This document shows, one piece after another, positions 23,940-53,811 of a stretch of DNA of 64,000 nucleotides. The stretch is taken from the NCBI GenBank assembly GCA_947627465.1, contig CANQWD010000010.1, positions 29,036 to 93,035 of the forward strand, written 5' to 3'. How positions within the stretch are numbered: position 1 is the first letter of the stretch; each line of letters opens with the position of its first letter. Below the pieces are notes generated by a model. It saw only the letters and a program-made list of their open reading frames with translations, was not told where the DNA came from and did no database searches. The position numbers were made by a program, and so were the translations under genes. Source of the stretch: an uncultured Clostridia bacterium. Lineage in GTDB: Bacteria > Bacillota > Clostridia > Oscillospirales > Ruminococcaceae.

Positions 23940-25208
23940 ATGGCACGGAAAAGGAGCGGAGAACATTTTAAAAGCTCGCCCGAGGAACTGGGCAATTTAA
24001 AAGCAAAAAGCGCTCGCTCTTCTCGGAATACGCGTAAAAAATACGCCCGTTCCGCCGCGGAACATGACGCGGGCAAAGAAGCCGAAAAAATTATGCGCAA
24101 TAAAAGCCGACCGCGAAAGAAAAAGAAATTTCGCGGCGGCAATTATGCGCTTTATTATATTTTGGCGGCTGTCGTGGCCGTTGTCGTGCTGATAATTCTG
24201 TCTAACACCGTGTTTTTCAAGTGCTCTCATATCAACGTTTCGGGAAACGTCAAATACAGAGCCGAGGAGATAGCCGATAAATCGGGACTTAAGATTGGCG
24301 AAAATCTTCTGCGGATGAATACGTCTCAAGCCCGCGATAAGATCATAGAGTCTTTGGTATATGTCGATGAAGCCGAGGTAAAAAAATCATTTCCCACAAG
24401 CGTTGAAATTACCGTGACCGAAGCCGAAAAGGAATACTGTATAAGCGAGGGCGGCGTTACAGCGGCGATATCGCGCAAGGGCAAGATACTTGAGCACGGC
24501 GAAGCGGACGGTCTGCCTATTGTCAAAGGCTATGAAGCGGAAACGATCGAGATCGGCAAGTGGCTTAAATCAAAATCCGAGGGCAAAACAGAGATCCCCG
24601 ACATCATATTGAATGCTGCGGACAAGGCGGGTTTGAAGAATATTACCGAGATCGATATTACAGATAAGTTCTCAGTGAAAATAACCGTGGAAAACCGCGT
24701 TATCCTCCAGCTTGGACCCGCAGAGGAAGTTGAAAGCAAGCTGCTTGTCGCGGTTGAGATAATTACAAATCAGATCGGAAAGGATGAGTATGTGACGCTG
24801 CTGCTTACAAATCCCGAAAAAGTTCCCGTGCAGAACAACTCCATACCTCACACAAGCAGTCTCGCTTCAAGTAAGGCGGCTTCGACGGTATCTTCATCTT
24901 CCGCGGCGTCCGTGCCGGAATCCGTTGCAGAGCCGCAGGTTGATCCCGATCCCGATCCCGAACCCGAGCCTGAACCCGATCCCGAGCCCGATCCCGAGCC
25001 CGATCCCGAGCCCGATCCCGAGCCTGAACCCGATCCCGAACCCGAACCGGAACCCGATCCCGAACCCGATCCCGAACCGGAACCCGATCCCGAACCCGAA
25101 CCTGACCCCGAGCCTGAACCCGACCCCGAGCCGGAGCCTGACCCCGATCCCGACCCCGAACCGGAACCCGATCCCGAACCCGACCCGCAGCCCGCCTCGG
25201 AAACTTGA
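23940..25208 (+). CDS. FtsQ/DivIB-type division protein with C-terminal (D/E)P-repeat tail
   Basis: Basic N-terminus, one TM, POTRA-like [31 protein letters not shown]; ends in ~85-residue DP/EP repeats; lies between murA and ftsZ. Confidence 0.85.
24944..25196. repeat. In-frame low-complexity tandem repeat encoding (D/E)P
   Basis: Degenerate 6-bp cccgat/cccgag/cccgaa units. Confidence 0.9.
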
Positions 25209-35115: not shown

Positions 35116-35553
35116 TTATGTATCATCCGTATATCTCATAATTTGCGCGCGGGGCTTAAATCCGTATTTTTCATAGAGATGAACAGCTTCGTTTCCTGCG
35201 ATGACTTTCAGTTCCACCGCCTTAATGCCCGCGCTGCGAAAAGAGTTCATTGCCCAATCCAAAAGGCTTTTGCCGAAACCTTTTCCGCGGTATTCCTTTA
35301 AAATGACCAGATAAGCGAGATATCCGCATTTTGGGTCGAGGTCGATTTTGGAAAAACCGACTATCTTTCCGTCTTCCTCAATTACCGCGATTTTTGAGAA
35401 ACCCGATGAGATGTCTTTCTTTAGATCTTCAAGCACCTTGTCGTGCGGATCTATTGGATAAACGCCCTTGTGGTAAAGCGATACGCTGTTGTGGTGTTCC
35501 GCCAGAGCTTCAAGACACTCGCGGAGTTTTGAAATTTCATTGACATTATTCAT
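35116..35553 (-). CDS. GNAT family N-acetyltransferase
   Basis: AYLVILKEYRGKGFGKSLLDWAMN...GNEAVHLYEKYGFKPR. Confidence 0.85.
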   Translation of the reverse strand: MNNVNEISKLRECLEALAEHHNSVSLYHKGVYPIDPHDKVLEDLKKDISSGFSKIAVIEEDGKIVGFSKIDLDPKCGYLAYLVILKEYRGKGFGKSLLDWAMNSFRSAGIKAVELKVIAGNEAVHLYEKYGFKPRAQIMRYTDDT

Positions 35554-36625
35554 TTCGCGCAGCATTTTTCCCCTCCAAATGCGACAAAAGCGTCGCAATA
35601 ATTTCATTTGACACCAAAAATCCATTTGGCGTAAGCGACAATCTGCCGTTTTCAATTTTGTAATAATTTTTCGGAATAAGCGGCAGAAAGTTTTCGACTT
35701 TTCGCCAAAGCGTTTCCGGAATGCCCTCGCAGAGCCGCAGCCCGAGCATTATACGTTCTTCAAGTTCATTCGGGTTTTCGTCCGTGACGATTTCAAGTTG
35801 ATGTTCGCTTGAAATAAACTCGCGGATATCGCGCTTCACCGCGAACCGCCGTCCTTTATAAAATGAGTGCGCCGCCGCGCCTATTCCGAGATATTCCTCG
35901 CGCCGCCAGTATTTGAGATTGTGACGGCTTTGAAATTTTGCCTTTGCGAAATTGCTTATTTCGTATTGCTTAAAGCCCGCGTTTTCAAGTAAACTCACCG
36001 CCGAGAGATAAAGCTCCGCCGTTTCGTCTTCGCTTGGGAGATTTTCGGGCGGATTTTTCCCGAAAACAGTGTTCGGTTCAATTTTGAGAAGATACGCGGA
36101 AACGTGTGTTATCGGAAGTTCCGCGAGACTTTTTACGGAGCGTTTCAGCGTTTCGGCGGTCTGATTTGGCACGGCAATCATTAAATCGGCGGAAATATCG
36201 GAAAAGCCTATGCTGTCAGCCATGAGTATCGCCAGCCGCGCCTGCTCGAACGTATGAGAACGTCCGAGCGCTTTCAATTCGCAGTCGTTCGCCGACTGAA
36301 CGCCCACCGAGAGCCTGTTCACGCCGCATTCGTGCAGAATTTTCAGCGTTTCCTCATCCATTTCGAGAGGGTTACATTCAACCGTTATTTCCGCGCCGCT
36401 TTTTATTTCACATTCCGCGAGTATTTGAAGAATATGTCGTGCCATAAGAATTGGAGTTCCGCCGCCGAAATATACCGTGTCGTATTCCTCGTTATAGTAA
36501 TGAATATTGCGGATAACCGCTTTTGCGTATTCTTCCGCCAACTCCTCGCGGTAGCCAACCGAGTAAAAGTCGCAGTACGGGCACTTTTTTCGGCAGAACG
36601 GAACGTGAATATAAAGCCCCGCCAT
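35546..36625 (-). CDS. hemW: Radical SAM heme chaperone HemW (oxygen-independent coproporphyrinogen oxidase-like)
   Basis: MAGLYIHVPFCRKKCPYCDFYS...YFGGGTPILM...GVQSANDCELKALGRSHTFEQA. Confidence 0.93.
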   Translation of the reverse strand: MAGLYIHVPFCRKKCPYCDFYSVGYREELAEEYAKAVIRNIHYYNEEYDTVYFGGGTPILMARHILQILAECEIKSGAEITVECNPLEMDEETLKILHECGVNRLSVGVQSANDCELKALGRSHTFEQARLAILMADSIGFSDISADLMIAVPNQTAETLKRSVKSLAELPITHVSAYLLKIEPNTVFGKNPPENLPSEDETAELYLSAVSLLENAGFKQYEISNFAKAKFQSRHNLKYWRREEYLGIGAAAHSFYKGRRFAVKRDIREFISSEHQLEIVTDENPNELEERIMLGLRLCEGIPETLWRKVENFLPLIPKNYYKIENGRLSLTPNGFLVSNEIIATLLSHLEGKNAARNE

Positions 36626-36645
36626 TTTATCGCCGTCCTTTACGT

Positions 36646-36676
36646 AAAAAAGCGTCAAGTTTTTGGGGCTTGACGC
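36646..36676 (-). terminator. Terminator ending the small-ORF operon before hemW
   Basis: Minus strand GCGTCAAG-CCCCAAAAA-CTTGACGC followed by TTTTTT. Confidence 0.75.
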
Positions 36677-36685
36677 CTTTGGATT

Positions 36686-36820
36686 TTAGTCTTCTAAGGT
36701 TTTTTGAAGATTGTCGATTAATTTCTTTAATTTCGGGTTTGGGTTTTCTTCATAGATTTCTTTAAGAGTTTCAAGCGTTACACGAATAAAAGCTTTGAAT
36801 TGGCTGTCTGTTTGTCCCAT
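36686..36820 (-). CDS. 44-aa small protein
   Basis: caggaggtgaaaaaATG; MGQTDSQFKAFIRVTLETLKEIYEENPNPKLKKLIDNLQKTLED*. Confidence 0.75.
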   Translation of the reverse strand: MGQTDSQFKAFIRVTLETLKEIYEENPNPKLKKLIDNLQKTLED

Positions 36821-36864
36821 TTTTTCACCTCCTGAAATCACTTTCGGTTAATCTTTTCGACAGT

Positions 36865-37035
36865 TTAGTCGGGGAGTTCGGTTGGCTGCAATTTCAATTT
36901 AATGGTTTGCATTTTTTTGTCAATCAGCTTTACTGTTTCGACTGCGTTTTCCTCTTTTGCCATATCTCTGATGTCTTTAAGCGTCATATATTCATCTATC
37001 AGTCTGCCTTCGTATTGTCTGTCGGTCTCGCTCAT
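36865..37035 (-). CDS. 56-aa small protein
   Basis: aggaggtgagggaaATG; MSETDRQYEGRLIDEYMTLKDIRDMAKEENAVETVKLIDKKMQTIKLKLQPTELPD*. Confidence 0.75.
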   Translation of the reverse strand: MSETDRQYEGRLIDEYMTLKDIRDMAKEENAVETVKLIDKKMQTIKLKLQPTELPD

Positions 37036-37054
37036 TTCCCTCACCTCCTAAAAA

Positions 37055-37201
37055 TCACTTTTGGTTTTCGCATATTTCGGCGTATTTTTCCACCAACTCC
37101 TTAAAATCCTCGAGAGTAGTACAGCTTTGCAATTCGTTTAAAAACTTTTGTTGTTCAAGCTGTCTTGCCAGCCGCTCGATTGTTTCAGCGTTGTTTGGCA
37201 C
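37055..37201 (-). CDS. 48-aa small protein
   Basis: cagggggtgattttGTG; MPNNAETIERLARQLEQQKFLNELQSCTTLEDFKELVEKYAEICENQK*. Confidence 0.7.
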   Translation of the reverse strand: MPNNAETIERLARQLEQQKFLNELQSCTTLEDFKELVEKYAEICENQK

Positions 37202-37224
37202 AAAATCACCCCCTGTTTACTTTA

Positions 37225-37253
37225 ATTATAACAAAGATTTCCCAAATTGTCAA
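37225..37253 (-). promoter_or_regulatory. Promoter of small-ORF operon
   Basis: Minus strand TTGACA-17 bp-TATAAT, starting 4 nt after the lepA stop. Confidence 0.85.
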
Positions 37254-37256
37254 GGC

Positions 37257-39065
37257 TTATTCGTCGTCCAATTTCAGCACCGCCATAAACGCTTCCTGCG
37301 GCACTTCCACCGTACCGAACCGGCGCATACGCTTTTTGCCCTCTTTTTGCTTTTCAAGGAGTTTTTTCTTTCGCGTGATGTCGCCGCCGTAGCACTTCGC
37401 CAGAACGTCTTTTCGCAATGCCTTTATCGTCTCCCGCGCGATTATTTTGCCGCCGATGCACGCCTGAATGGGTATCTCAAACAATTGCCGCGGGATATGC
37501 TCTTTAAGTTTTTCCGCCATTTTGCGTGCTCTGTCGTAGGCTCTGTCCGCGTGGACGATAAACGACAGCGCGTCTATAACCTCGCCGTTCAGCATTATAT
37601 CAAGCTTTACGAGCTTAGACGGCGCGAAGCCCATCATCTCGTAGTCGTAGCTGGCGTAGCCGCGCGTGCGGGATTTCAATGCGTCAAAGAAGTCGTAAAC
37701 TATCTCGTTGAGCGGCAGTTCGTAATGCAAGTCCACACGAGTTTGGTCGATGTACTTCATATCCTTAAACACTCCGCGCCTGTTTTGACAAAGCTCCATA
37801 ATGCCGCCTACATAGTCGCTCGGCGCGTAAACATGCGCGTTCACCATAGGCTCGTAAGCTTGCTTTATCAGCGTTGTGTCGGGGAAGTTGAACGGGTTAT
37901 CTATCATCTTGACTTCGCCGTCCGTAAGCTCAATCTTGTAGACTACCGAGGGCGCGGTCGTGATAATGTCGAGGTCGTACTCGCGCTCGATACGCTCCTG
38001 CACCACGTCCATGTGAAGAAGCCCCAAAAATCCGCAGCGGAAACCGAAGCCCAGCGCTACTGAGCTTTCCGGCTCGAACGACAGCGACGCGTCGTTGAGC
38101 TGTAATTTTTCGAGAGCGTCCCGCAAATCGGGATATTTCGCGCCGTCGGCGGGGTAAATTCCGCTGAACACCATGGGATTTACCTCGCGGTAGCCCGCTA
38201 AAGGCTCGGCGGCGGGATTTGTCGCCGAAGTCACCGTGTCTCCGACTTTCGTGTCTCCAATGGACTTTATAGAAGCCGCGATATAGCCGACTTCTCCCGC
38301 GCGGAGTTCCGAACAAGGAACAAGTTCGGTTGCTCCCATATAACCGACTTCTACAGTCGTAAACTCCGCGTTTGAAGCCATCATTCTTATCTTATCACCC
38401 GCTTTTATACAGCCCTCTTTCACGCGGACATAGACGATAACGCCTTTGTAGCTGTCGTAGTAGCTGTCGAAGATCAAGGCTTTCAGCGGCTTTTCGGTAT
38501 CGCCTTTCGGCGCGGGAATTTTCTTGACGATCTCCTCCATAACCGCGTGGATGTTCGTTCCCATTTTCGCGGAGATCTCGGGTGCGTCCATAGCTTCAAT
38601 GCCTATGACATTTTCAATTTCCTCTTTGACAACCTGCGGCTGAGCCGAGGGCAAGTCGATTTTGTTGACTACGGGCACGACTTCCAAATCGTTTTCCACG
38701 GCGAGATAGGTGTTGGCGAGGGTCTGCGCTTCAATGCCCTGAGAAGCGTCCACTATCAGAATAGCGCCCTCGCAGGCGACCAGCGACCGCGACACCTCGT
38801 AGTTAAAGTCAACGTGACCGGGCGTGTCTATAAGATTGAAAATGTAGTCCTCGCCGTCGTCAGCTTTGTATTTCAGACGAACGGCGCGCGCTTTAATCGT
38901 AATTCCGCGCTCTCGCTCGATGTCCATATTGTCGAGAAGCTGCTCCTCCATATCGCGCAGAGCCACTGTTTCGGTCTGCTCCAAGATCCTGTCGGCGAGC
39001 GTGGACTTTCCGTGGTCTATATGCGCTATTATGCAGAAATTGCGTATTTTACTTAAATAATCCAA
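37257..39065 (-). CDS. lepA: Elongation factor 4
   Basis: [31 protein letters not shown]...[24 protein letters not shown]. Confidence 0.97.
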
Positions 39066-53531: not shown

Positions 53532-53545
53532 TAAAAATAACAAAA

Positions 53546-53811
53546 AGCGTTGACGAGAATCCAGTAGCGTTGTGAACTCCTTTTCAGAGAGCCGTCGGCA
53601 GGTGCGAGACGGCAGGGAACACACTGCGAATTACCTCTCCGAGCGGCGGCGTGAAAAGCGCGGGCAGCATTTGTGTGCCCGTTCCGAATAGCGCGCACGG
53701 GTAAGCCCGTTATAGCTGTTCAAGGCGCGGTCTTGCTGTCGCGATCGCGTAAATTGAGGTGGTACCGCGGTGTTTATTCGCCCTCTGAAGTTTTGGCTTC
53801 GGAGGGCTTTT
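53546..53811 (+). ncRNA. T-box riboswitch leader, Tyr-type
   Basis: T-box core AGGTGGTACCGCG (53757-53769), terminator GCCCTCTGAAG...CTTCGGAGGGC-TTTT, candidate specifier TAC at 53632-53634; tyrS downstream. Confidence 0.9.

Follow-up and report, generated by a model that had tools for sequence, protein, structure and literature searches.

Phage morons, described for lambdoid and Mu-like phages, are defined as units of promoter, gene, and terminator that lie between genes adjacent in related genomes and have a deviant composition (PMC4378225). The pid gene of P22 is one example (PMC3573128), and Tab, a moron product of 83 residues, is able to block competing phages (PMC10884400). How morons are acquired has been termed mysterious, in part for want of any recognized common flanking sequence (PMC4378225). 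Another small phage protein, gp4 of LUZ24, has 46 residues and two helices and binds MvaT (PMC8501957).

We examined a 64,000-nucleotide stretch of the genome of an uncultured Clostridia bacterium (here called the window) that contains a unit resembling these morons. Like them, the unit carries its own promoter and terminator around a coding region, lies between genes that are adjacent in relatives (24 of 29), is AT rich compared with its neighbors, and encodes small ORFan products; its site, too, is empty or otherwise occupied in relatives. Morons reside in phages and prophages, whereas the window copy sits among housekeeping genes, and we therefore call it moron-like rather than a moron. Unlike phage morons, the family occurs in many copies per genome, its units have one to three genes each, and unrelated sites have in common a left end and a terminator specific to the cassette. 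Integron gene cassettes share with it an exchangeable cargo between constant ends but differ in that the cargo here has its own promoter region and terminator, and no integrase or attC was seen adjoining the cassettes. Catalogues of unannotated bacterial proteins of this size, GMSC (PMC11364881) and sORFdb (PMC11796252), may include the three window proteins, P1 to P3, although such an entry would not cover the cassette, its dispersal, or its cargo exchange.

The unit, bounded by lepA (stop at 37257) and hemW (ATG at 36625), is read from the minus strand and has the following features.

37257..39065, minus strand: lepA, flanking gene, ancestral left neighbor
37225..37253, minus strand: promoter TTGACA-17-TATAAT with extended -10 (TG), 12 of 12 consensus positions; left cassette edge
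37206..37213, minus strand: Shine-Dalgarno of P1, GGGGGTGA, read from the sequence
37055..37201, minus strand: P1, 48 aa, GTG start, MPNNAETIERLARQLEQQ..., 77% identical to a relative in G003:C1
37041..37049, minus strand: Shine-Dalgarno of P2, AGGAGGTGA, read from the sequence
36865..37035, minus strand: P2, 56 aa, MSETDRQYEGRLIDEY..., TDxQ family; predicted alpha-hairpin; basis includes pN/pS
36825..36833, minus strand: Shine-Dalgarno of P3, AGGAGGTGA, read from the sequence
36686..36820, minus strand: P3, 44 aa, MGQTDSQFKAFIRVTLETLKE...LQKTLED, TDxQ family; predicted alpha-hairpin; basis includes pN/pS
36645..36680, minus strand: terminator hairpin AAAGGCGTCAAG-CCCCAAAAA-CTTGACGCTTT and T-run, a variant of the cassette-specific terminator; right edge
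35546..36625, minus strand: gene for a hemW-like radical SAM protein, flanking, ancestral right neighbor

Most of this layout had been proposed in a sequence-only reading, and the three short ORFs of 48, 56, and 44 aa, each with a Shine-Dalgarno, were recovered by sequence and scans. The promoter was as described there, but its -35 begins 3 nt past the lepA stop (37253-37225), not 4. Exact TTGACA-N14-TGNTATAAT sites numbered 150 in the window's genome (reversed control, 0), so that the window promoter alone proves little, and we rejected a perfect promoter as a hallmark of the cassette. The hairpin noted before hemW held up: its 12-bp stem (36680-36648, then the T-run to 36645) folds at -14.8 kcal/mol (z, -4.9), with no shuffled sequence equally stable. 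A generic terminator scan missed it only because it allows loops of at most 8, and this loop is one of 9. The GC content of the cassette was 37.8%, compared with 52% for lepA, 48% for hemW, and 49% for the window. The locus had no match in Rfam. Elsewhere in the window, we observed an FtsQ-like cell division protein with a C-terminal repeat tail of ∼100 residues (23940-25208, plus strand) and a T-box leader (Rfam RF00230, 112 bits; 53541-53788, plus strand) that precedes an acetyltransferase-like gene and tyrS. The region upstream of tyrS in G003 and G029 contains P2-type cassettes.

Frame conservation in related genomes had been named as one check that could refute a three-gene small-protein operon, and synonymous divergence proved far above nonsynonymous divergence for every gene. 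Between the window and its G038 orthologues, P2 had 18 synonymous and 6 nonsynonymous differences (pS, 0.57; pN, 0.044) and P3 had 10 and 5 (pS, 0.395; pN, 0.047), and P1 compared with its relative in G003 gave a pS of 0.86 and a pN of 0.156. The pN/pS ratios of P1 to P3 against relatives were thus about 0.08 to 0.18, indicating purifying selection on all three frames, and for 17 Lachnospiraceae relatives as a set the pS was 0.49 and the pN 0.056. Judged by this codon-level selection, the three window ORFs are real genes, and it is on this ground that we count the unit as real. A compact promoter-terminator unit would also be expected if the transcript were a noncoding RNA with ORFs present by chance, but that reading is contradicted by a pS 5 to 13 times pN in every comparison at the locus and by amino acid motifs that are kept across families of Clostridia; we give it almost no credence.

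We compared the lepA-hemW junction with its counterpart in 29 further genus genomes for which the lepA end was fetched. In 24 of these, lepA and hemW overlap or abut, with 10 to 19 nt separating the lepA stop from the YIHVPFC motif of HemW, versus 643 nt in the window. On this comparison, ∼0.6 kb of AT-rich DNA is inserted between the two genes in the window's genome (G000). G038 carries, at the same junction, the promoter and P2, a repeat-like spacer, and P3 with the terminator (a copy split over two contigs whose ends have 44 nt in common); P1 is absent and would therefore have entered or left between the promoter and P2. G029 retains a decayed P3 at this position. The insertion, being common to G000, G038, and G029, is ancestral to these three, and an insertion old enough for three species implies that the window copy need not be mobile today. 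The G038 and G029 copies together indicate that the cassette is dispensable. In G038 (L071/L087), the contigs are interrupted between P2 and P3 by a GC-rich repeat-like element, and each of the two genes is preceded by a copy of the leader TTAAGTTAAGCGCATTTTTGAGGAG. A different ORF of ∼220 aa lies between lepA and hemW in G030 (L227), and G029 also has a 572-aa gene there; from these two inserts, the junction may be an insertion hotspot.

The sequence-only reading had also remarked that the three peptides share a style. For P2 and P3 this reflects homology, found by iterative HMM search and by hhalign (E value, 2e-6; probability, 89), whereas no relation of P1 to P2/P3 was detectable by sequence. 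The proteins are acidic and soluble (pI 4.6 to 5.3). Searches of Pfam, NCBIfam, PHROGs, PADLOC, and PDB sequences with P1 to P3 and their alignments gave only scattered subthreshold matches, and the PADLOC defense library had no match for the cassette proteins. AlphaFold2 predicted an alpha-hairpin both for P3 (pLDDT, 91.9; helices 3-25 and 29-43) and for P2 (pLDDT, 90.6; helices 5-28 and 32-49). The P3 family keeps its invariant or nearly invariant residues where helix 1 begins (TDxQF, R13) and where helix 2 finishes (NLQ...LED), and the loop varies; in a hairpin these positions lie together at the open end, which suggests a putative site for a conserved partner.

In both structure libraries, the top full-length hit of P3 was gp4 of a LUZ24-like phage (TM, 0.85 to 0.94), and LUZ24 gp4 (Mip; PDB 6YSE) is a two-helix hairpin of nearly equal length with a long first and a short second helix, a layout also predicted for P3. 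Together with the strong purifying selection on the cassette genes, this match fits host-beneficial regulators, hairpins that bind a host protein and tune a bacterial process as gp4 does with MvaT or Sda with a sporulation kinase. The full-length fold match (23% identity in the fold alignment) had Foldseek E values of 0.47 to 0.71, which are not significant, and two-helix hairpins match easily; moreover, the structural matches of P2 differ from those of P3. No sequence homology to gp4 appeared among PDB sequences, nor does anything point to an H-NS-like target for P3. A resemblance to Sda or Spo0E was considered and dropped as unsupported, as neither family matched in Pfam. A core function is hard to square with the patchy presence described below and with the decayed copy in G029, and a host regulator, although the main alternative to a function in conflict, seems to us unlikely.

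The distribution of the family is patchy. A profile of P2/P3 had confident hits in 11 of the 43 genus genomes (a twelfth listed match, in G001, was at chance level and was left out of this count), and a P3-type match occurred in 9 of 393 genomes sampled evenly across the class. G038 has the most, with the family at about seven separate sites; because the genomes compared are mostly drafts and many are MAGs, copy numbers are minima. Within the genus, copies lie among unrelated housekeeping genes (for instance, pgk/tpi, uvrB/uvrA, tyrS, rimO, and lysS), often two in tandem, and single-gene cassettes are common. Most first genes of these arrays have the same promoter type as the window. In the wider search, 142 loci were confirmed in genome_contigs (80 kept), mainly in MAGs labeled Lachnospiraceae, Oscillospiraceae, and Monoglobus, and 22 family loci were confirmed in viral contigs. 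The window's genome itself has a further, decayed copy with stops (G000:C41:9416-9544).

Copies at unrelated sites also have common noncoding DNA around the cargo. In 601 kb of fetched genus DNA, a terminator motif (GGYGTNAAG-loop-CTTNACRCC followed by T) and a promoter core, GATCCGTGTTATAATGTAGGTAA, occurred only at cassette arrays, including one led by a P1 relative. Searching all 43 genus genomes for the strict terminator pattern, as an out-of-sample test of a motif found in fetched DNA, gave 12 hits that represent 10 distinct hairpins, two of them read on both strands. All were in 7 family-carrying genomes, with none in the other 36 and none in the control, and every hit was directly behind a gene for a small helical protein (including a P2-type gene in G018:C283). 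The promoter-core pattern with 3 mismatches was too strict for such use, with 2 hits genus-wide. The terminator stem is kept by compensation, with pair 8 being TA, AT, CG, GC, or TG and pair 5 being TA or CG (in this comparison the automatic finder chose the wrong hairpin for one row, L289).

Three further cargo families were found through the terminator.

F3: MQDxEL...LIDSYANLxRI...KLEAMGIVTT; related to P2 (hhalign E value, 7e-6)
F4: MTNQELCxQYELLxALIETGN
F5: MSQKSLTVGDV...LEQMEARS

A cassette consists of one to three genes for predicted alpha-helical-hairpin proteins of 41 to 57 residues. The cassette family was previously unnamed, and several of its protein families have no Pfam, NCBIfam, PHROG, or PADLOC model. 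The window's genome has an F5-P2 cassette near ilvE (L082; G000:C7:77988-78155). In the lysS-htpG region, L298 (G028:C84) and L089 (G003:C25) hold cassettes in opposite orientation, with F5 versus P2/P3-type cargo, and are possibly independent insertions at one site.

One orthologous pair of prsA-like loci, G003:C1 and G028:C14, captures a difference in cargo. The flanks are 85 to 92% identical in DNA over kilobases on both sides. Identity on the left runs through TTCCTTGAAAACCGAATACAGACTTGACA, is lost past the -35, and returns just before the terminator, GGTGTTAAGTCTG...CTTAACACC. Between these constant ends, G003:C1 has 685 bp encoding P1-F3-F3 and G028:C14 has 189 bp with one F4 gene, and the two have no similarity. 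From this alignment, the frame stayed and the cargo was replaced at this one locus. An ordinary, vertically inherited small-protein operon with nothing mobile would account for the insertion common to G000, G038, and G029 and for several further cassette sites common to two species. It is contradicted by the full replacement of cargo at an orthologous locus, and dispersed paralogues at unrelated sites, common cassette-specific ends, and phage copies also speak against it; we regard it as highly improbable.

Near-identical Lachnospiraceae copies have a common segment that begins at the -35 (mean identity of 40% in the 40 nt upstream and 75% downstream) and ends shortly past the stop of the next gene. 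In L097, L101, L287, and L082, the left end CAGACTTGACA is an inverted repeat of the right arm GGTGTTAAGTCTG, and both arms deviate together in L082 (CTTTAC) and L303 (CAGGC/GCCTG). None of 34 host promoters read had CAGRC before TTGACA. (A left-end hit in L307, inside a coding region, was set aside as chance.) We also noted a stretch, TTCCTTGAAAACCGAATA, before the cassettes L097, L287, and L101, which we take to resemble the 16S-23S spacer of Firmicutes. Such ends could belong to a MITE-like element, a nonautonomous transposon with terminal inverted repeats CAGACTTnACAnC ... GGTGTnAAGTCTG, a transposase acting in trans, and the genes as passengers, and the covarying arms, their difference from host promoters, and the left edge at the -35 in Lachnospiraceae as well are in its favor. 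The arms are short and degenerate, and several copies lack a clear left arm, including the window, where the arm is only CTTGACA, hardly beyond a -35 box and too short to count; the terminator stem alone would also account for the right arm. No transposase, integrase, recombinase, or target site duplication was identified for the cassettes compared, and no close pair of filled and empty sites with precise ends was found among these loci. We consider a MITE-like origin fairly unlikely. The common ends fit mobile-element terminal repeats and homologous recombination alike. A bolder proposal, which we find rather improbable, is that the ends (left TTCCTTGAAAACCGAATACAGACTTGACA, right hairpin GGTGTnAAGTCTG...CTTnACACC) are fixed chromosomal docking frames between which one tiny alpha-hairpin gene is exchanged for another through a dedicated recombination process unlike that of integrons; this would also explain the movement of morons between phage and host.

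Viral contigs L207 and L208 have the family gene flanked by the genes for the tail chaperone and the tape measure protein, a position that matches the classical moron arrangement. Phage occurrences of the family are confined to metagenomic viral contigs: two P3-type queries had no match by tblastn in INPHARED phages or PLSDB plasmids. A scan of the viral contigs for P1, a P2-type protein, F3, and F4 gave no matches; the P2 alignment was too weakly conserved for a scan of this kind. In a set of Lachnospiraceae loci (L168, L170-L174, L179, and L183), the P3-type gene is followed by a repressor-like gene (PHROG 876, which we read as ribbon-helix-helix), from which a GC-rich hairpin separates it. 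Within the promoter spacer lies a GGTCGACC palindrome with an operator-like look, and the layout is acr-aca-like. Their 3' region had no match in Rfam.

The repressor-like gene and palindrome of these loci could indicate a toxin-antitoxin or orphan antitoxin module, and an antitoxin-like role had been among the earlier suggestions for the window. That suggestion was not sustained, there being no partner toxin in the window, and neither a repressor-like gene nor a toxin was present there or in cassettes elsewhere in the genus. The proteins are soluble and acidic, and single-gene cassettes are common. We demoted both the toxin-antitoxin and the acr-aca-like reading of the Lachnospiraceae cluster to a weak rival, and the module is in our judgment very unlikely.

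We favor the reading that the window unit is a mobile, moron-like cassette that has settled in the chromosome of a bacterium; we think this likely and are slightly more confident still of the cassette or moron architecture as such. Such a cassette, placed between housekeeping genes, would consist of a strong sigma-A promoter, one to three alpha-hairpin genes, and a dedicated terminator. It would spread and exchange cargo by recombination between the common cassette ends, perhaps with help from the inverted repeat CAGACTTnACA / GGTGTnAAGTCTG or from phages carrying the same genes. The proteins would be made constitutively and in large amounts and would serve as small binding proteins. It is important to note that we infer the mobility of the cassettes only from comparative genomics. 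Beyond what the sequence-only reading proposed, the window unit would belong to a cassette family that is dispersed and mobile and exchanges its cargo, with this copy lodged in an ancestral lepA-hemW pair. The quick turnover of cargo, the patchy presence, the copies in phages, and the strong purifying selection together favor a part in conflicts with phages or mobile elements of other kinds (superinfection blocking or counterdefense, as for known phage morons), which we put forward tentatively, as possible rather than probable.

Dispersed copies with both ends in common, together with a cargo swap between two species, would make the mechanism of moron entry testable, and the G003/G028 pair offers a natural before-and-after of cargo replacement. 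These unannotated families, under strong selection in gut Clostridia and their phages, are a plausible reservoir of phage-host conflict proteins.
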